Assembly (NCBI RefSeq): GCF_005298075.1 | Contig: NZ_SZZH01000001.1 | Location: 620,001-684,000, forward strand | Reading direction: 5' to 3' | Source of the DNA: Nakamurella flava | GTDB taxonomy: Bacteria > Actinomycetota > Actinomycetes > Mycobacteriales > Nakamurellaceae | DNA: 64,000 bases | Shown here: positions 23,341 to 36,236 of the stretch, in pieces | Layout of the letters: the number at the start of each line of letters is the position of its first letter | Numbering within the stretch: position 1 is the first letter of the stretch | Notes under the pieces: generated by a model | Told to the model about the DNA's origin: nothing | Databases searched by the model: none | Seen by the model: only the letters and a program-made list of their open reading frames with translations | Position numbers and translations under genes: made by a program

Positions 23341-24891
23341 ATGACTGTGCGTCGCATCATGGGGACCGAAGTCGAGTACGGCATCTCGGTGCCGGGCGAA
23401 CCCGGGGTGAACCCGGTGATCTCCTCCACCCAGGTCGTCCTGGCCTACGCCGCGTCCGTCGCCGCGCCGCGGGCCCGCCGCCCCCGTTGGGACTACGAGG
23501 TGGAGTCGCCCCTGCGGGACGCCCGCGGGTACGACCTGTCGGCGCTGTTCGGCGCGTCCGAGCCGGACATCGACGACATCGGCGCGGCCAATGTCATCCT
23601 CTCCAACGGCGCTCGGCTCTACGTCGACCACGCCCATCCGGAGTTCTCCTCACCCGAGGTCACCAACCCGCTGGACGGCGTGCTCTTCGACAAGGCCGGT
23701 GAGCGGGTGATGGAGGCGGCGGCCCAGCTGGCGGCGGCCGTGCCCGGGGCCAAGCCCATCCACATGTACAAGAACAACGTCGACGGCAAGGGCGCCTCCT
23801 ACGGCACCCACGAGAACTACCTGTGCAAGCGGGACACCCCGTTCCCGGCCCTGATCGCCGGGCTGACGCCGTTCTTCGCGTCCCGCCAGGTGATCACCGG
23901 TGCCGGGCGGGTCGGCATCGGTCCGTCCGGCCAGACCGAGGGCTACCAGCTGGGGCAGCGGTCGGACTACATCGAGGTCGAGGTCGGGCTGGAGACCACG
24001 CTCAAGCGGGGCATCATCAACACCCGCGACGAGCCGCACGCCGACGCCGACAAGCACCGCCGGCTGCACGTCATCATCGGGGACGCCAACCTGGCCGAGA
24101 CGTCCACCTACCTCAAGCTGGGCACGTCGGCGCTCGTCCTGGCGATGATCGAGGCCGGCTGGCCCATGCCGGACGTCGAGCTGGCCCAGCCCGTGGCCGC
24201 CGTGCACCACATCTCCCACGACCCGTCCCTGAAGACGGTCGTCACGCTGCACGACGGGCGCAAGTACACCGGTCTGGACATTCAGCGGGCCTACGCCGAG
24301 GCGGCCGCCGCGTTCGTCGCCGACGGTGGCGGGGCGGCTGTCGGGGCCACGCCCGGCGGCGGGGAGCCCGACGAGCGCGTCGAGGCCCAGACCCAGGACG
24401 TCGTCGACCGCTGGCTCGACGTGCTCGACCGGCTCGAGCGCGACCCGATGCTGCTGGCCGACGAGCTCGACTGGCCGGCCAAGCTGCGGTTGCTGGAGGG
24501 GTACCGCGCGCGGGACGGACTGTCCTGGGGGGCGCCGCGGCTGGCGCTCATCGACCTGCAGTACTCCGACGTCCGGATGGACAAGGGCCTGTACAACCGG
24601 CTGGTCAGCCGCGGGTCGATGAAGCGGCTGGTGGACGAGGACGCGGTGCAGCGGGCGATGACGGCTCCGCCGGAGGACACCCGGGCCTACTTCCGGGGTC
24701 GGTGCGTCGGCCAGTTCGCCGACCGGCTCGCGGCGGCCTCCTGGGACTCGGTGATCTTCGACGTCGGCCGCGAGTCGCTGGTCCGGATCCCCACCCTGGA
24801 GCCGACCCGCGGGACCCGGCACCACGTCGGCGCCCTGCTGGACGCGGCCGCGGACGCCACCGAACTGGTGGACGCGCTGACCCGCAGATAG
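23341..24891 (+). CDS. dop: Pup deamidase/depupylase Dop
   Basis: A 516-residue enzyme of the glutamine-synthetase-like fold. It converts the C-terminal Gln of Pup to Glu and removes Pup from substrates. The ATP/Mg site begins with MGTEVEYG (Glu10, Glu12). The catalytic region is [11 protein letters not shown] with Asp96. The segment between about 57 and 80 ([20 protein letters not shown]) is the Dop-specific loop missing in Paf[21 protein letters not shown] carries further nucleotide-site residues. The ATG at 23341 is predicted to be leaderless. It directly precedes pup, as in all complete Pup loci. Confidence 0.97.
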
Positions 24892-25173: not shown

Positions 25174-26072
25174 TCGGCGACCGTTCGGGTTTCGCCCCGT
25201 CGCAGCCCGCCGCGCCCTGGCCGGTCGCCGCGGTCCCTGCGGCCTACCTGCGCCCGGGGACCGGTTCGTTCACCGAGTTCCTGGCCGCGGCCGAGCCGCA
25301 TCTGCTGCCGCAGCGGCCGATCGACCCGTACAGCGGGCCGGCGGGTTCGGGCCCGGACGTCCCCCATGCGACCACCATCGTGGCGGTGACCTGCGCCGAC
25401 GGCGTGGTGATGGCCGGTGACCGGCGGGCGACGATGGGCAACATCATCGCCCAGCGGGACATCGAGAAGGTGTTCCTGGCCGACTCGCACTCGGCGATCG
25501 GCATCGCCGGTACCGCGGGTCTGGCCGTCGAGATGGTCCGGCTGTTCAAGCTGGAGCTGGAGCACTACGAGAAGATCGAGGGCGTCCGGCTGTCGCTGGA
25601 CGGCAAGGCCAACCGACTGGCCACGATGATCCGCAACAACCTCGGCGCCGCCCTGCAGGGTCTGGCGGTCGTCCCGTTGTTCGCCGGGGTCGAGGACAGC
25701 TTCGGATCCCGGGGGACCGCGCCGATGCCGGCGACCGGGCCGGGCCGGATCTTCTCGTACGACGTCGCAGGCGGGAAGTACGAGGAACACGACTACTTCG
25801 CGGTCGGCTCCGGGTCGGTGTTCGCCCGCTCCGCCCTGAAGAAGCGCTACCGGCCGGGTGCCGATCTGGCCACCGCGGTGCGGTACACGGTCGAGGCGCT
25901 CTACGACGCGGCCGACGACGACAGCGCCACCGGCGGCCCGGATCTGACGCGTCGGATCTTCCCCGTCGTGGTGGCGGTGACGACCACCGGCGCGGTCCGG
26001 TGGTCCGACGAAGCCGTCGGTGCGGTGGCCGATGCCGTCGTCACCGGACGGATGCAGAACCCGGGGGGCTGA
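25170..26072 (+). CDS. prcB: Proteasome beta subunit PrcB
   Basis: The catalytic 20S subunit, 300 residues as translated. A 67-residue propeptide (rich in Pro/Ala, ending DVPHA) is removed to expose Thr68 as the N-terminal nucleophile of [17 protein letters not shown]. The supporting aspartate lies in AGDRRAT and the lysine in [28 protein letters not shown] and [20 protein letters not shown] are standard beta-subunit stretches. The GTG start overlaps the pup stop. prcA follows after 128 bp. Confidence 0.97.
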
Positions 26073-26200
26073 GTCCGGGGCCGCCGTCGATCCACCCGAT
26101 CGCCGGCGGCCGCTCCCGCCCCCGCCCCCGCGTCGCCCGACCCCACGGCCCGCCGGATCCGACTTCCGCGACCGTGAACGCCCGAAGGAGCCCGTCCGCC

Positions 26201-27028
26201 GTGACGATGCCGATCTACGCCTCGCCCGAACAGTTCATGCGGGACCGGTCCGAGTACGCCCGCAAGGGCATCTCCCGGGGTCGCAGCGTCGTCGTCATGA
26301 CCTACGCCGACGGCGTGCTGTTCGTCGCCGAGAACCATCAGCCGTCCCTGCACAAGGTCGGCGAGATCTACGACCGGATCGGGTTCGCGGGGGTCGGCCG
26401 GTACAACGAGTTCGAGAACCTGCGGACGGCCGGGATCCGGCTGGCCGACGTCCGCGGCTTCTCCTACGACCGGCGGGACGTGACGGGTCGCTGGTTGGCC
26501 AACGCCTACGCCCAGACCATCGGCTCGATCTTCTCCGAGCACCAGAAGCCGTTCGAGGTCGAACTGTGCGTCGCCGAGGTCGGTCCCGCACCGGCTCCCG
26601 GCGTGCCGCTGATGACCGACGACGACGGCCCCACCGGCGGGCACGACCAGCTGTACCGCATCTCCTACGACGGGTCGATCGTCGACGAACGGCGGTTCGT
26701 GGTGATGGGCGGGGCGACCGAGCCGGTCGTCTCGGCCCTGCAGTCCAGCTATGCGCCGGGTCTGCCCCTGCGCGCCGCTCTTCGGGCGGCGGTCTCCGCG
26801 CTGGGCGCGGCGGGGGAGAACGCCCCTCGGCAGCTGACCCCGGCCCAGTTGGAGGTCGCCGTCCTCGACCGGACCCTGGCCGGCCGGACCTTCCGCCGCC
26901 TCGAAGGCGGGGCGTTGTCCGCCCTGCTGACCGAGCCGGAGGTCGTGGTGACCCTGCCCGAGGGCCCTGACCCCACCGAGTCCGATCCCACCGACGCGGA
27001 CGCCGCCACGGGGGATGAGACGGCCTGA
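26201..27028 (+). CDS. prcA: Proteasome alpha subunit PrcA
   Basis: A 275-residue alpha subunit forming the outer gating rings of the 20S core. It begins (V)[30 protein letters not shown], the actinobacterial PrcA start, and has [19 protein letters not shown] and [13 protein letters not shown]. The C-terminus is an acidic, disordered tail ([20 protein letters not shown]). The GTG at 26201 is favoured by AGGAG about 10 nt upstream; ATG 26207 would give the same core. It is separated from prcB by 128 bp, unlike loci where the two overlap. Confidence 0.96.
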
Positions 27029-27081: not shown

Positions 27082-27121
27082 TCAACCGGTATCACGCGCA
27101 CTCGAGCTGCCTCCTGACCCC

Positions 27122-27186
27122 GGGTTCGGGCAGTCCTGACGAGGGGTTCGGGAGTTCCTGAACGCCGTGCGCCACCCCACTAAGCT
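27122..27186 (+). promoter_or_regulatory. Candidate operator repeats and -10 of the sigma-factor gene
   Basis: Two near-identical units, GGGTTCGGGCAGTCCTGA (27122-27139) and GGGTTCGGGAGTTCCTGA (27144-27161), are spaced 22 bp apart, two DNA turns. The second forms an imperfect dyad GTTCGGGA-GT-TCCTGAAC. A -10 hexamer TAAGCT follows at 27181-27186. The arrangement suggests a dimeric regulator bound just upstream of the promoter. Confidence 0.45.
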
Positions 27187-27240: not shown

Positions 27241-28074
27241 GTGTCGCAGTCGCGCCTGTCGGTCGTCGTCCTCGCCGTTGGCGGCGGGACGGCCGCTGAC
27301 GCTCCGACGGTGGAGCGGAACGAGTGGGAAGGCGTGAAGCCGATGACGAGCGCTGAGGACGGCGTGACAGACCCCGCGGGAACGCTGACCGAGCTGTCTC
27401 CCGCACCGTCGCCGCGGATCGCCGGTGACGGGTCCGCTCCCGGGACGGTGGAGACACCGTCACCGCCGGAACCGGTTGTCCAGGACGACGCCGCGGCCGG
27501 TCAGACCCGCCGTCGCGACGCCGGGGACCTGGTGGTGCGGGCCGGTGCGGCCTTCCAGAGCTACCGGGAGGGCACCCCGGGCGCCATCGACGAACTGGTC
27601 CGCCTGGTCAGCCCGCTGCTGTGGCACACCGCCCGCCAGTGCGGGCTGACCGGAGCGGAGTCCGAGGACGTCGTGCAGCAGACGTTCATGCTGCTCGTGC
27701 GGCACAAGGACAGCATCAGCGATCCGCTCGCGGTCGTGCGCTGGATGACCGTCAGCCTGCGCCGGATGGCCTGGCGGGAGAAAGCCGCCGGGGCCAAACG
27801 CACCGGCGAGGAGCCCACCGATCAGGACCTGCCCCGGTCGCCGTCGGCCGAGCATGCCGCGTTGCTGACCGATCAGCAGCGCCGGTTGTGGGCACTGGTG
27901 TCGGAACTGCCCGAACGGTGTCGACGGCTGCTCGCAGTCATCGCGTTCGCCCCCAAACCCGACTACGCCCGCATCGCCACCGACCTGGGCATCCCGATCG
28001 GTTCCATCGGCCCGACCCGTGGTCGCTGCCTGGCCAAGCTGCGCGCCCGACTCGACAAAGGAGAGTGGTCATGA
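27241..28074 (+). CDS. RNA polymerase sigma factor (sigma-70/ECF-like)
   Basis: A 277-residue sigma factor. The first 85 residues are low-complexity and Pro/Ala-rich. Region 2 follows (about 105-170): AIDELVRLVSPLLWHTARQCGL, ESEDVVQQTFMLLVRH, AVVRWMTVSLRRMAWRE. Region 4 is at about 220-272: LWALVSELPERCRRLLAVIAFAPKPDYARIATDLGIPIGSIGPTRGRCLAKLRARL. No sigma-1.1 or region 3 is seen. The GTG at 27241 has a strong GGGAGG at 6 nt; internal starts at 27334 (GTG) and 27343 (ATG) remain possible because the N-terminus is not conserved. Its TGA overlaps the ATG of the next gene (ATGA). Confidence 0.9.
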   Translation: MSQSRLSVVVLAVGGGTAADAPTVERNEWEGVKPMTSAEDGVTDPAGTLTELSPAPSPRIAGDGSAPGTVETPSPPEPVVQDDAAAGQTRRRDAGDLVVRAGAAFQSYREGTPGAIDELVRLVSPLLWHTARQCGLTGAESEDVVQQTFMLLVRHKDSISDPLAVVRWMTVSLRRMAWREKAAGAKRTGEEPTDQDLPRSPSAEHAALLTDQQRRLWALVSELPERCRRLLAVIAFAPKPDYARIATDLGIPIGSIGPTRGRCLAKLRARLDKGEWS

Positions 28075-28736
28075 TCGCTCCTGGTGACCGCCCTGCCGGG
28101 CCCGGCGCCCCCGTGGCGTTACCCGCCCAGTCGCACCTGGGGACGGCCGGGGATTTCGTGGCCGAACTGGAGCTCGCCGACGCCGACGAGGTCGGTGGCC
28201 TGGAACCGTTGGATCGCACCGACCTGCGTCTGCTCGGTGATCTCGCCGCCATCTACGACGCCTTCGACCCGATGCCCGAGCTGCTGCCCGACCTGATCCT
28301 CTTCGGACTGGACGGTCTCGGGGCCATGGACTCCGACATCGGCCGTGGCCCGGCATCGGACGGCCCCGACGGGCGGCTGGACGCCGAGCTCGCCCGGCTG
28401 GTCGAGTCGGAGCTCGCCGGGGTCGGACCGTCGGGAACGCGGTCGGTCGAACATGCCCGTCGGGTCACCTTCGCCAGCGACAACCTGACGGTCATGCTCG
28501 TTCTGCACCCGCACCGGGACGGCTCCGTCCGCCTGGACGGTTGGGCCGCACCGGGTGCGGGACTGCGCGCCGAGCTCCGTTCCGGCGATGCCGTGCTGTG
28601 CACCCAGTGCGACGACGCTGGACGGTTCGTCTTCGAGGCCGTTCCCGGGGGTCCCGCCCAGCTGGTCCTGCATCCCACGGAGCTGTCGGATCCGGTGCTG
28701 ACCCTCCCGGTGGTCACCCCGGCCGTCCATCTCTGA
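28071..28736 (+). CDS. Sigma-factor-coupled protein of unknown function (candidate sigma regulator)
   Basis: A 221-residue protein, translationally coupled to the sigma factor by an ATGA overlap with AAAGGAG upstream. The acidic N-terminal part is helical: LDRTDLRLLGDLAAIYDAFDPMPELLPDL, then RLDAELARLVESELAG. The C-terminal 95 residues are beta-rich (RRVTFASDNLTVMLVLHPHRDGSVRL, then DDAGRFVFEAVPGGPAQLVLHP), resembling a carboxypeptidase-regulatory-like sandwich. It has a CxxC (LCTQC). No membrane segment. From memory, similar proteins sit between sigma factors and CHAT proteins in other actinomycetes, but I know of no assigned function. Position suggests an inhibitor or cofactor of the sigma factor. 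Confidence 0.75.
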   Translation: MIAPGDRPAGPGAPVALPAQSHLGTAGDFVAELELADADEVGGLEPLDRTDLRLLGDLAAIYDAFDPMPELLPDLILFGLDGLGAMDSDIGRGPASDGPDGRLDAELARLVESELAGVGPSGTRSVEHARRVTFASDNLTVMLVLHPHRDGSVRLDGWAAPGAGLRAELRSGDAVLCTQCDDAGRFVFEAVPGGPAQLVLHPTELSDPVLTLPVVTPAVHL

Positions 28737-28794
28737 CGCGCGCACGCCGGCCCCGACTTCCGAGGGAGGGCGGCGGCGTTGCCCTGCCCGCGGA

Positions 28795-28823
28795 TTGACC
28801 CGACTATCGCTCCGCGATAGAAC
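28795..28823 (+). promoter_or_regulatory. Promoter of the CHAT gene with a dyad in the spacer
   Basis: TTGACC (28795-28800), 17 nt, TAGAAC (28818-28823). Within the spacer and overlapping the -10 is the perfect dyad CTATCGC-TCC-GCGATAG (28804-28820). A repressor bound there would block the promoter. The TTG at 28795 is therefore better read as a -35 element than as a start codon. Confidence 0.55.
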
Positions 28824-28920
28824 CGACGTCGGTGGTCGAACCGGGCGGAACCCCCTGCCGTTGCGTGAGGCCGCGCCTGCCGGACGGTGGGTGGCTGAAG
28901 CCTGGAGGGTGGCGCGACCG

Positions 28921-31737
28921 GTGATCTGTCGACAGAACGACACGTCGACGGATCGCGGGGTGCTGCCGGACGGGTCTGCGGGAGCAAACGCTGGATCTCT
29001 CCCGACCGCCGCCCGTCGGGTGCTCGATGCGTCGGCCGGCCTGCCGGCTCGGCCACCGCGGACACGCGGCCCGTTCGCGGCCCGGCCAGCACCTGTCTCT
29101 GCGGCTCAGCGGGCCGTCGTCACCGGTTGGACCTCGGCCCGCGAGCTCATCGACATCGGACGACCGGCGACGGGACTGCGACAGGCGGAACGCACCGTCG
29201 CCCGCCTGGACCGCCTGGTGTCGGCCTCCGGCGCCGATCCCGGGTGGACGTCGGCGATGCGGGCCCGGCTGCTACTGGTGCAGGCCGACGCCCAGGTGGA
29301 GCTGGGGGAGATCGACGACGCCGAGCGACTGCTCGACGAGGCCGCCGAGCTGGCCGCCACGACGGCTCCGACCGCGTCCCCGCACGTCCGGGCGTCCCGG
29401 GCCGTACTGCTCGCCCGGACCGGCCGCACTGCACAGGCCTGGCGCGAACTGGACGCGGCCATCGCGACGAACGGGCGACCAGGAGCCGCCCTGGTGCGGA
29501 TGCTGCACTGGCGGGCCCTGCTGCACCTCGGCGACGGCCGGCCGGAGGAGGCGCAGGCCGACTGCGCGCAGGCCCACCGGCTGGCCGAGGAGCTGGGCCT
29601 GATCGCTGGGGTCGCGCTGGCCGTCCACCAGCGCGGACTCGTGCACTTCGTCACCGGTGACCTGCCCCGGGCCCTGGCCGACATGAACCGGGCCGAGGAG
29701 ATCGATCCCGTGGTGCGCGTGGGGTACCGCGCCCTGGATCGGGCCCGGGTCCTGGCTGCGGCCGGATTGGTGCTCGAGGCCACCGACGCGGCGGTCCGGG
29801 CCGAGCAGGCGTTCGCCGCCGAACGCGCCCGGGTCGACCTGGCCGAGGCGCTGCTGGTGCTGGCCGATCTGGATCTGCTGCGTGGGGACCCGGCCAGTGC
29901 GGTCCGTCGTTCCCAGCAGGCGGTGCGCAGCTACGCCGCCGCCCGGCATCCGCGCGGCGAGCTTTCGGCCCGGGTCAGCGAGCTGCGGGCCGAGTCCCGC
30001 CAGATCGATCTCCCCGGACCGGGCCGTACGGAGCCCGCGGCGCCGGGCGACCCGTCGGGGTCCGATCGCCGGCGTCGCGCCCGCCGGGTCGCCGCCCACG
30101 CCGACCGACTGGCCTCCGAACTGCTCGCCGCCGGTCTGACCGAGGACCATCGGACCGTCCGGCTGCTGCAGGCCGATGCCCTGCTGCACGACGACCGGCT
30201 GGACGCCGCGGCCGCCGCGATCGAGGCTGCAGGCGTGCTCGAGGGGGGTCGGCTCCGCGGGACCAACCAGACCGCCACCATCGCCACCGAGCTGCAGGCC
30301 CGGGTCGTGCGCGCCCGTCTGGACTTCGCGCGGGGACGGGTGGCGGCCGGACTGGCCGAGATCCGCCGGGGTCTGGACGATCTCGCCCGCTATCAGGCAC
30401 GCTTCGGATCCCAGGACCTGCAGTCGGCCGCCGCGATGCACGGCCGGGAGCTGACCGGGCTGGGCCTGCGCGCGGCCCTGGAGACCGGGTCGCCGGCGGT
30501 GGTGCTGCAGTGGCTGGAGCGTTCGCGCGGGGCGGGGACCCGGTTGCCCGCGGTCCGGCCGAGCGCCGACCCGTTGCTCGGCCGGGAACTCGGTCAGCTG
30601 CGGACCGCGATGTACCTGGCCCACCTCGCGACCGTGCGCGGGGTGCCTGACCCGGTGCTCGACCGCCGGGTCGACGACCTGCGCCGACGGGTCCGGGCCC
30701 GGTCCTGGTCGCTCGCCGGTCCGGGTACGGTCGATCGCCCGCTGTCGCTGGCTGCCGTCCGACGGCGCCTGGCCCGGACCGATCCGCGGATCAGCATCGT
30801 CGCGCCGTTCCGGGGGCGCGGCCGGTTCCATGCCCTGGTCATCACCGCCGACTCCGCCCGCTACCTGCCGACGACGGCCGGGTTCCCCCTCGACCGGCTC
30901 CTGGCCCGCATCGTCGGTGACCTGGACGTCCTGGCCGACCGCCGGGTGCCCGAACGGCTCCGCGACGTCGCCCGGGCCTCGCTGCGGGCGGCGCTGGCGT
31001 CGGTGGCGGGAGAGATCGTCGAGCCCATCCTGCCGTTCGTGGACGACGGCCCGGTCATCGTCGCGGCCACCGGGGCCGCCGCCGTCGTGCCCTGGGCCCT
31101 ACTGCCCGGACTGACCGGCCGACCGGTCAGCGTGGTGTCGTCCGTCACCGGGGCGCTGGCCGCGCTGGACCGCCGCGCGGACGATCACCGGCACGGGGTG
31201 CTGGCGGTGGCCGGACCCGACCTGCCCCACGGGCGCGCGGAGGTCGCCGCCGTCGCCGCCGCGCATCCCGGGGCCGTCGTGCTCACCGACGACCGGGCGA
31301 CCGGCGCGGAGGTGCTGCGGGCCATTCCGGCCGGCGGCCTGTTGCACATCGCCGCCCACGGCCACCACGAACCCGCCAGCCCGCTCTTCTCCGGGGTGCT
31401 GCTGCACGACGGCCTGCTGTACGGGTACGACGTGGCCCCGAATCCGACCCTGCCGGCCCAGGTCGTGCTGTCCAGCTGTGACGTCGGACGGGCCGACGAC
31501 CGCCCCGGCGGGGAACCGCTGGGCCTGGTGGCGGCGTTGCTGCGCAGCGGGGTGTCCACCGTGGTCGCGGGGACCGCGCGGATCTCCGATCAGGCGGCGG
31601 CGGCGACCATGGCCGCCTATCACCGACGGCTGGCCGCCGGCGACCGGCCCGCCGCGGCGCTGGCCCAGGCCGTCGCCCACGTCGCCGACACCATCGACGA
31701 CCCGGCGCCGTTCACCTGCTTCGGGGCCGGTCTGTAG
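28921..31737 (+). CDS. TPR-CHAT caspase-like protease
   Basis: About 938 residues. The first two thirds are alpha-helical repeats of TPR type (for example MLHWRALLHLGDGRPEEAQADCAQAHRLA, VHQRGLVHFVTGDLPRALADMNRAEE). The C-terminal third is a CHAT peptidase domain. The catalytic pair is His813 in HIAAHGHHEP and Cys853 in VVLSSCDVGRADD, 40 residues apart as in known CHAT domains. The end (GEPLGLVAALLRSGVSTVVAGTARISD) is also typical. The start is uncertain: in-frame GTGs at 28891, 28909 and 28921 all lie behind GGAGGGTGG-like sequence. It follows the sigma factor and its coupled protein and has its own predicted promoter. Confidence 0.85.
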   Translation: MICRQNDTSTDRGVLPDGSAGANAGSLPTAARRVLDASAGLPARPPRTRGPFAARPAPVSAAQRAVVTGWTSARELIDIGRPATGLRQAERTVARLDRLVSASGADPGWTSAMRARLLLVQADAQVELGEIDDAERLLDEAAELAATTAPTASPHVRASRAVLLARTGRTAQAWRELDAAIATNGRPGAALVRMLHWRALLHLGDGRPEEAQADCAQAHRLAEELGLIAGVALAVHQRGLVHFVTGDLPRALADMNRAEEIDPVVRVGYRALDRARVLAAAGLVLEATDAAVRAEQAFAAERARVDLAEALLVLADLDLLRGDPASAVRRSQQAVRSYAAARHPRGELSARVSELRAESRQIDLPGPGRTEPAAPGDPSGSDRRRRARRVAAHADRLASELLAAGLTEDHRTVRLLQADALLHDDRLDAAAAAIEAAGVLEGGRLRGTNQTATIATELQARVVRARLDFARGRVAAGLAEIRRGLDDLARYQARFGSQDLQSAAAMHGRELTGLGLRAALETGSPAVVLQWLERSRGAGTRLPAVRPSADPLLGRELGQLRTAMYLAHLATVRGVPDPVLDRRVDDLRRRVRARSWSLAGPGTVDRPLSLAAVRRRLARTDPRISIVAPFRGRGRFHALVITADSARYLPTTAGFPLDRLLARIVGDLDVLADRRVPERLRDVARASLRAALASVAGEIVEPILPFVDDGPVIVAATGAAAVVPWALLPGLTGRPVSVVSSVTGALAALDRRADDHRHGVLAVAGPDLPHGRAEVAAVAAAHPGAVVLTDDRATGAEVLRAIPAGGLLHIAAHGHHEPASPLFSGVLLHDGLLYGYDVAPNPTLPAQVVLSSCDVGRADDRPGGEPLGLVAALLRSGVSTVVAGTARISDQAAAATMAAYHRRLAAGDRPAAALAQAVAHVADTIDDPAPFTCFGAGL

Positions 31738-34767: not shown

Positions 34768-34864
34768 CGCCGCCGCGGGCGCGGACCGGATGCGGTCCGA
34801 CCCCGTTCCGGGGTCCGGGGTTTCGTTCGGCCCCGTCGGCCGCACCGCTGGTGACCGCTCGGCA

Positions 34865-34870
34865 TAGGCT
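34865..34870 (+). promoter_or_regulatory. -10 element of pafA (leaderless or near-leaderless)
   Basis: TAGGCT ends 7 nt before the pafA ATG, the same geometry as at dop. The intervening CGGAGAC could also act as a ribosome site if transcription began slightly earlier. Confidence 0.6.
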
Positions 34871-34877
34871 CGGAGAC

Positions 34878-36236
34878 ATGCAGCGTCGGATCATGGGTAT
34901 CGAGACCGAGTTCGGGATCACCTGCACCTTCCACGGGCAGCGTCGCCTGAGCCCCGACGAGGTCGCCCGGTACCTGTTCCGGCGGGTGGTGTCGTGGGGG
35001 CGCTCGTCGAACGTCTTCCTGCGCAACGGGTCCCGGCTGTACCTGGACGTGGGCTCGCATCCGGAGTACGCCACGGCCGAGTGCGACGACCTGCCGACGC
35101 TGATCGCGCACGACAAGGCCGGCGAGCACATCCTGCAGGAGCTGGTCGTCGACGCCGAGGCGCGGCTCGCCGAGGAGGGCATCGGCGGTGACATCTACCT
35201 GTTCAAGAACAACACCGACTCGGCCGGTAACTCCTACGGCTGCCACGAGAACTTCCTCATCACCCGGGGTGGTGAGTTCGCGAAGATCGCCGACGGGCTG
35301 ATCCCGTTCCTGGTGACCCGGCAGTTGATCGCCGGCGCCGGCAAGGTCCTGCAGTCGCCGCGGGGGGCCGCCTACTGCCTGTCCCAGCGGGCCGACCACA
35401 TCTGGGAGGGGGTCTCGAGCGCGACCACCCGGTCGCGGCCGATCATCAACACCCGCGACGAGCCACACGCAGATGCCGAGCGGTACCGCCGCCTGCACGT
35501 CATCGTGGGCGACTCGAACATGAGCGAGACCACCACGTTGCTGAAGGTGGGCAGCGCCGCCCTGGTGCTGGAGATGATCGAGGCCGGCGTACCGCTGCGG
35601 GACTTCACCTTCGAGAACCCGATCCGGGCCATCCGTGAGATCTCCCACGACACCACGGGCCGGCGGCCGGTCCGGCTGGCCACCGGCGGCGACATCTGCG
35701 CCCTGGACGCGCAGCTCGACTACTTCGAGCGGGCCACCGCGTTCGTCGAGAAGCGGGGCAGTGATCCGGTGACCGACCGGGTCCTGGACCTGTGGGGACG
35801 CACCCTGACCGCGGTGCAGACCCAGGACCTGTCCGGGGTCGACACCGAGATCGACTGGGTCATCAAGAAGAAGCTGATCGACGGGTACGCGACCAAGCAC
35901 GGGCTGGATCTCACCCACCCGCGGATCGCCCAGATCGACCTGACCTACCACGATGTCCGACCGGGTCGCGGTCTGTACTCGCTGCTGGTGGCCAAGGGGC
36001 GGGCGGCCCAGGTGGTCACCGAGGACAAGATCATCGAGGCGACCACGGTGCCGCCGCAGACCACCCGCGCCCGGCTGCGGGGCGAGTTCGTCGCCGCCGC
36101 GCAGGACGCGAGCCGCGACTACACCGTGGACTGGGTGCACCTCAAGCTCAACGACCAGGCCCAGCGGACGGTGCTGCTCAAGGACCCGTTCAAGTCCGAG
36201 GACGAACGGGTCACCCGCCTCATCGAGTCGATGTAG
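34878..36236 (+). CDS. pafA: Pup-protein ligase PafA
   Basis: A 452-residue glutamine-synthetase-like ligase. It phosphorylates the C-terminal Glu of Pup and joins it to substrate lysines. It starts [14 protein letters not shown] (Glu9/Glu11 metal site). The catalytic Asp57 lies in [17 protein letters not shown]. It lacks the Dop loop. [28 protein letters not shown] and the C-terminal Pup-groove domain are complete. The length equals that of mycobacterial PafA. Its 3' end overlaps the convergent FxsA gene by 17 bp. It is 8 kb from prcA, because the sigma/CHAT genes and the CNNM pair sit between them. Confidence 0.97.

Follow-up and report, generated by a model that had tools for sequence, protein, structure and literature searches.

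The 64-kb window analysed here (the whole of the Nakamurella flava stretch) carries three intact genes on its + strand, encoding an extracytoplasmic function (ECF)-type sigma factor, a protein that we call P2, and a TPR-CHAT protease. Comparison with related loci makes it probable that the locus is a cytoplasmic sigma-release switch free of CRISPR, in which P2 would be an anti-sigma factor that is cut by the CHAT protease after Arg124, thereby freeing a sigma factor that amplifies its own synthesis. The genes co-occur across the Actinomycetota, and the sigma and P2 genes overlap. One arginine in the P2 linker is nearly invariant, and goes missing where CHAT is absent. A promoter-like motif lies upstream of the module, and recurs before homologous genes of different species. 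The features of the locus are:

27089-27116, + strand: promoter-like motif GTATCA-N16-CTCCTG, 5' of the sigma gene (exact match; same motif in relatives)
27241-28074, + strand: ECF-type sigma factor, 277 aa (TIGR02937, 52.7 bits against a cut-off of 42.9)
28071-28736, + strand: P2, predicted soluble anti-sigma factor, 221 aa (ATGA overlap, family alignment, weak domain matches in relatives, model)
28071-28736, + strand: predicted P2 architecture of helical N-terminal part, linker and beta-sandwich (alignment and model)
28440-28442, + strand: codon of P2 Arg124, candidate P1 residue in G-T-R/S, cleavage being placed after R (R in 75/79 aligned P2s)
28921-31737, + strand: TPR-CHAT protease, 938 aa (PF12770, 94.6 bits; full-length family profile A2)
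31357-31359, + strand: codon of catalytic His813 of the CHAT protein (H in 69/69 module CHATs)
31477-31479, + strand: codon of catalytic Cys853 of the CHAT protein (C in 68/69 module CHATs)

Composition and distribution of the module

The sigma gene has a GTG start 5 nt after GGGAGG and a TGA stop at 28072-28074, which the P2 start overlaps as ATGA. An NTGA stop/start overlap is found in 42 of 72 sigma-P2 pairs, with a one-base overlap in three more, and this bears out the translational coupling that a sequence-only reading of the window had proposed. The sigma factor passes TIGR02937, the sigma70-ECF model; its match to Sigma70_r2 (Pfam) is below cut-off, and the N-terminal ~90 residues are unaligned in most relatives. 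The CHAT protein exceeds the PF12770 cut-off of 24 and has TPR matches N-terminal to the CHAT domain. Its His813/Cys853 dyad is intact, as the same reading had noted, and the single exception to the cysteine among module CHATs is a sequence cut by the end of its stretch.

P2 is present in 15 of 61 genomes of the order. Searching 14 loci fetched from the order by tblastn with the window proteins located sigma and P2 in 13 (not L061), and CHAT in 12 of these, the remaining locus (L060) being a short contig. A CHAT family search gave 67 places in 42 of 198 genomes of the phylum. Of the 66 places in genomes other than the window's, 62 fall in the 60 CHAT-anchored regions; P2 occurs in 19 of these regions, and many of the remaining CHATs are of other kinds.

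Profiles of P2 (A1), module CHAT (A2) and a module S8 subtilase (A3) were each run over 396 Actinomycetota genomes. Genome-level cuts were set, after inspection, at gaps in the best scores (143-267 bits for CHAT, 175-227 for S8 and 27-67 for P2). P2 is found in 56 genomes, CHAT in 52 and S8 in 48, and these sets are nested, such that all S8 genomes have CHAT and all CHAT genomes have P2. The survey of co-occurrence suggested by the sequence-only reading thus finds that the genes do occur together. P2 is seen without CHAT, while CHAT without P2 and S8 without CHAT are not seen, and this order fits the switch proposed below. Some of the loci from which A1 was built were CHAT-anchored, so that P2 variants never meeting CHAT may be missed, and the best 8 (P2), 2 (CHAT) and 4 (S8) first-look candidates per genome were scored, so that absences are not absolute. 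For example, G051 was P2-negative in the order search, yet it carries a divergent module.

Among 44 new P2 loci, comprising 45 P2 stretches, a sigma gene adjoins on the same strand in 38, CHAT lies within 8 kb in 29, and S8 is present in 31. All four members occur in 28, sigma alone in nine and none of the three in four, some of the misses being contig ends. P2 and CHAT are in separate loci in several genomes, e.g. G143, G174 and G244.

Judged from these sequences, the module in relatives usually comprises four genes: sigma, P2, CHAT and a particular S8 subtilase, the last brought in by profile searches of the relatives' loci. The set of three previously proposed is real in the window, but it is not the usual complement elsewhere. 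The S8 gene may be upstream of sigma, between P2 and CHAT, downstream of CHAT, or divergent. No module-type S8 was found in the window's genome, which has two S8 genes, one scoring 67 bits against the module S8 profile and the other without a match.

A search for further conserved members among flanking open reading frames (ORFs) yielded none. The largest cross-lineage cluster (19 of 87 loci) is a generic ABC transporter ATPase, and the other large clusters among the 25 listed follow lineage synteny. Some Nakamurella genomes have a second, divergent type of module (L300, L301 and L302; G051, G032 and G478) with its own P2, CHAT and S8, in which sigma adjoins P2 only in L301 and L302. Two other Nakamurella modules have tandem CHAT and tandem S8 genes (L048, 5113-15214; L051, 4332-14057). 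In two families (L053-L057, L177 and L197) the module, or P2 and S8 without CHAT, lies among genes that from their ORF sequences are presumably nusG and ribosomal-protein genes.

P2 and its linker arginine

No membrane anchor is apparent from the sequence of P2. The closest named relative found is a Nakamurella metagenome-assembled genome, with 63% identity in P2, and a scan of genome contigs with P2 found one relative. The C-terminal part is predicted to be a beta-sandwich. The structural model, made with two sequences and having a mean pLDDT (predicted local distance difference test) of 49, contains eight strands between residues 132 and 216, with blocks spanning 131-210 at 52-83, and CarboxypepD_reg matches below threshold are found in 9 of 10 relatives tested. 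A fold search with this model gave no match at E 0.001. In divergent P2 members there are weak matches to zf-HC2 (7 of 13, best E 0.0034) and RskA_N (one, E 0.0052), all below cut-offs; a resemblance of their N-termini to a zinc-less anti-sigma domain is suggestive only. The window P2 also has a ~20-residue insert (residues 82-101; window 28314-28373) that is absent from the close relative L002.

For the P2 alignment, 79 of 80 stretches were over the score limit, and one short piece was dropped. With arginine in 75 of the 79, the column of Arg124 is the fifth most conserved of 180 by entropy, at 0.39 bits compared with about 1.8-3.5 for its neighbors. The following residue is G, S, A or T in 77, in the context G-V/T-R followed by G/S. 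This is the only strongly conserved residue of a variable linker that has indels on both sides, and in the model it is placed in a low-confidence linker between the helix 102-116 and the strand at 132. Seven further P2s, read by eye, keep the arginine, and no equivalent conserved arginine site was recognised in the S8, CHAT or sigma linkers. A preference for arginine is known from other proteases of the caspase clan, namely separase, metacaspases and gingipain R.

The arginine tracks the presence of CHAT. It is found in 61 of 62 P2s with CHAT on the same stretch, compared with 14 of 17 without. Two genomes with an arginine-less P2 (G372 and G398) were predicted, before the genome-wide CHAT search, to be without a module CHAT, and both lack it. 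Conversely, ten genomes with an orphan P2 that keeps the arginine were predicted to be CHAT-positive. Six were already known to be so, leaving four as the real test; G285 and G326 have a module CHAT, and we return to the other two below. At the genome level, loss of the arginine is associated with absence of CHAT with a Fisher p of 0.004, or 0.011 on including G055, where it is replaced by histidine (kinship ignored in both).

A promoter-like motif and its candidate targets

The motif GTATCA-N16-CTCCTG of the window is one of three exact matches in its own genome (with N15-18), where the reversed pattern has none. In Nakamurella, GTATCA-N16-18-CTCCTG lies before the first gene of the module, be that sigma or S8. 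Six loci were compared; L002 has the motif with one change, and L048 has none in the upstream stretch examined. With at most one mismatch and within 500 bp upstream of a module gene, the motif is found in 16 of 76 P2 loci, in eight of them exactly. As a control, 11 of 12 permuted motifs gave 0 loci, and one gave three. Because the motif precedes the module genes, we propose that the sigma factor regulates its own expression. Between the motif and the sigma start there are two near-identical 18-bp direct repeats (GGGTTCGGG-AGT-CCTGA, at 27122-27139 and 27144-27161), perhaps an operator.

The motif is more frequent in genomes that have P2. It occurs 3, 8, 3, 8 and 7 times in the Nakamurella genomes with a window-type P2 (G000, G003, G478, G019 and G059 respectively), and 0, 0, 0 and 1 times in those without (G479, G480, G051 and G481). 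An exact test on these counts gives p 0.008, ignoring kinship, and the reversed pattern occurs twice in total in the nine genomes. Across the 61 genomes of the order there are 33 matches in the 15 P2-positive genomes and nine in the 46 others (p 0.002, kinship again ignored), and nine matches to the reversed pattern, none of them in a P2-positive genome. The strict motif is absent from eight of the 15 (G032, G001, G006, G014, G030, G054, G055 and G058).

Homologous ORFs behind the motif recur in different species, the module itself included. With family names taken from Pfam, these are a lipoprotein-like family (G000, G019, G059 and G478), an alpha/beta-hydrolase-like protein (G000 and G003; Abhydrolase_1 below cut-off), YceI (G003 and G059), DUF4232 (G019, and G017 of another family), a proline-rich and a small membrane-like protein (each in G003 and G019) and an unnamed protein (G478 and G017). 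One further pair (G019/G059) reads like antisense ORFs and may be no gene. To judge from their sequences, the recurring motif-associated genes of module-bearing Nakamurella largely encode secreted or membrane proteins. An AAA-LuxR regulator of Streptomyces has the motif 33 nt upstream of its GTG in seven cases, often with a mismatch; six of these cases are in module-bearing genomes. This spacing is compatible with a leaderless promoter.

The proposed switch, its alternatives and known systems

We suggest the following mechanism. P2 would be synthesised together with the ECF sigma factor, and the N-terminal helical part of P2 would keep sigma inactive. A signal, for which the TPR region is the likeliest sensor, would activate CHAT, which would then cleave the P2 linker after Arg124. 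This would free sigma, either at once or when the N-terminal P2 fragment has been degraded further. From GTATCA-N16-CTCCTG promoters, sigma may then transcribe the module that encodes it and a small regulon coding for lipoprotein, YceI, DUF4232, alpha/beta-hydrolase and membrane proteins. In most species the S8 subtilase would act with or downstream of CHAT; the window species has none of the module type. The protease-inhibitor-sigma switch put forward by the sequence-only reading is favored by co-occurrence, coupling, the tracking of CHAT by the arginine and the motif; the proteasome link attached to it is discussed below. To that reading the comparison adds the S8 subtilase, the candidate cleavage site, and the promoter-like motif with its candidate target genes.

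A number of observations weigh against this mechanism. The P2 of L059 (genome G055) has histidine in place of the linker arginine despite having CHAT, with no S8 nearby. The remaining two test genomes, G341 and G308, keep the arginine, and a module CHAT was undetected in their assemblies of ~240 and ~590 contigs respectively. No motif is found near the module genes in 60 of the 76 P2 loci; if the motif is right, its specificity must therefore differ between lineages. A scan of 15 Streptomyces genomes gave four motif matches against 11 for the reversed pattern, i.e. no genome-wide enrichment. The N-terminus of P2 resembles anti-sigma domains weakly and below cut-off, neither Pfam nor NCBIfam gives a match to the window P2 up to E 1, and there is no anti-sigma structure among the PDB profile matches of P2. 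Lastly, all of the statistical tests include related sequences, which are not independent of one another.

P2 might be cut by the S8 subtilase, with CHAT activating S8 or acting elsewhere. S8 is present in 48 of the 52 CHAT genomes, and often adjoins P2. However, the linker arginine is kept in all four CHAT genomes that lack a module S8, one of which is the window's; this points to CHAT, more than to S8, as the protease. Moreover, G398 has a borderline S8 near P2, no CHAT, and has lost the arginine. We regard cleavage by S8 as rather unlikely.

A second alternative is that P2 is a partner or co-activator of sigma, whose cleavage by CHAT ends the response or alters its target. The weakness of the anti-sigma similarity would be in keeping with this, and P2 and sigma are paired as closely as an anti-sigma factor and its sigma factor would be. 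Against it, the divergent P2 members look like zinc-less anti-sigma N-termini, and the protease-cut partners of ECF sigma factors in the CASP and Calp systems are inhibitors. A co-activator role therefore seems unlikely.

The conserved arginine could instead be a binding or structural residue, with CHAT acting on another substrate. CHAT cleavage of P2 is a prediction from sequence, and the CHAT-bearing P2 with histidine would be accommodated. Yet this is the sole strongly conserved residue of an indel-rich linker, is followed by a small residue almost throughout, and goes missing where CHAT is absent. We give this alternative little credence.

The S8 subtilases show a further feature. In about 20 of 72 module S8s, judged by eye, near-identical short tandem repeats are found right before the catalytic domain (L049, L054, L089, L095, L100, L155, L171, L174, L187, L188 and others). 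Most are hexapeptides with a proline (TPYPGG x12, NPAYQG x8, NPSFFG x6 and GGPFMK x4), and their sequence differs between species and is uniform inside one array. Phr peptides are ligands of the TPR proteins Rap. Since such homogenised arrays are often present, one may imagine that short S8 hexapeptides are ligands of the CHAT TPR domain that gate the protease. Processing of S8 would then trigger CHAT, CHAT would cut P2 after the arginine, and the freed sigma would induce S8 and CHAT, making this an old caspase pathway of the Actinomycetota. We consider this scheme a long shot.

The module lies within a proteasome locus, as the sequence-only reading stated. A proteasome subunit ORF (26000-27028) is upstream, and Pup_ligase-family genes (23341-24891 and 34851-36236) are on both sides; we take these neighbors to be prcA, dop and pafA. 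The position is common to all five Nakamurella loci (L002 and L048-L051), but none of 70 other sequences searched (stretches of ~7-8 kb each side) has such genes beside the module. The suggested tie to Pup-proteasome proteolysis is very improbable and we have discarded it, since in the 75 sequences searched no locus outside the genus has this position. A mobile or defence element was also rejected. The three window proteins have no PADLOC match (one relative's S8 and CHAT match weakly, E 1e-4 to 6e-3), no plasmid record has CHAT at E 1e-20, and a single phage record matches over 72 residues. P2 is found in one record of the plasmid collection, a Nonomuraea replicon of 11.85 Mb that carries all four genes.

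By analogy, our proposed switch most likely works like Csx29, Csx30 and CASP-sigma, while belonging to no CRISPR system. The module CHAT domain is homologous to PDB chains 8d9f and 7x8a (labelled CHAT domain protein), which we take to be Csx29. Against the Csx29 family model (NCBIfam NF041237, cut-off 300 bits) the window protein is unmatched, and the best of three relatives scores 65.1 bits. Csx30 is absent from the 10 matches of the P2 profile to PDB sequences (up to E 10, by sequence comparison only). Scanning 121 sequences for CRISPR-like exact-repeat arrays flagged one (L113, which has no P2) and none in the window or at any P2 locus; this agrees with the earlier statement that no CRISPR component is present, cas genes being outside the search, which included no profiles for them.

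Type III-E CASP (Craspase) consists of the TPR-CHAT protease Csx29, Csx30 and CASP-sigma (PMC10028731). Like it, the module pairs an ECF sigma factor with a partner protein of two parts and has a TPR-CHAT protease bearing a His/Cys dyad. The module differs in having no CRISPR-like array, Csx29-level score or Csx30 match, and in the usual addition of the S8 subtilase. In Csx30 the cleavage site (residues 427-429) is in a C-terminal-domain loop, and no residue is essential (Strecker et al., PMC10028731), whereas P2 has one nearly invariant linker arginine. In the type III CRISPR system CalpL/CalpT/CalpS, a protease likewise cuts an anti-sigma factor holding an ECF sigma factor, as is predicted here; that protease is of the Lon type with a SAVED sensor for cyclic tetra-adenylate (cA4) (PMC11417357). 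Lon-SAVED domains are unmatched in the window protease, for which Pfam gives TPR and CHAT only. Unlike membrane anti-sigma systems such as DegS/RseA/RpoE, mentioned in PMC10028731, P2 has no apparent membrane anchor and the protease is caspase-like. The conflict systems of Kaur et al. 2020 (PMC7159879) similarly place bacterial caspase-superfamily proteases in conserved gene sets; in contrast to our module, whole-word counts in the main text are zero for CHAT, sigma factor and anti-sigma. No description of the non-CRISPR module was found in the open-access library searched; an ECF classification paper (PMC7826278) may treat the sigma group.

If the mechanism is correct, the protease-inhibitor-sigma circuit of type III CRISPR would have a CRISPR-free counterpart across many families of the Actinomycetota, a phylum in which the module extends to Streptomyces. 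Candidates for its cleavage site and promoter, and a short list of targets, would come with it. The function of a bacterial TPR-CHAT protease could then be tested in ordinary laboratory strains, and the circuit would bear on where Craspase-type signalling came from.

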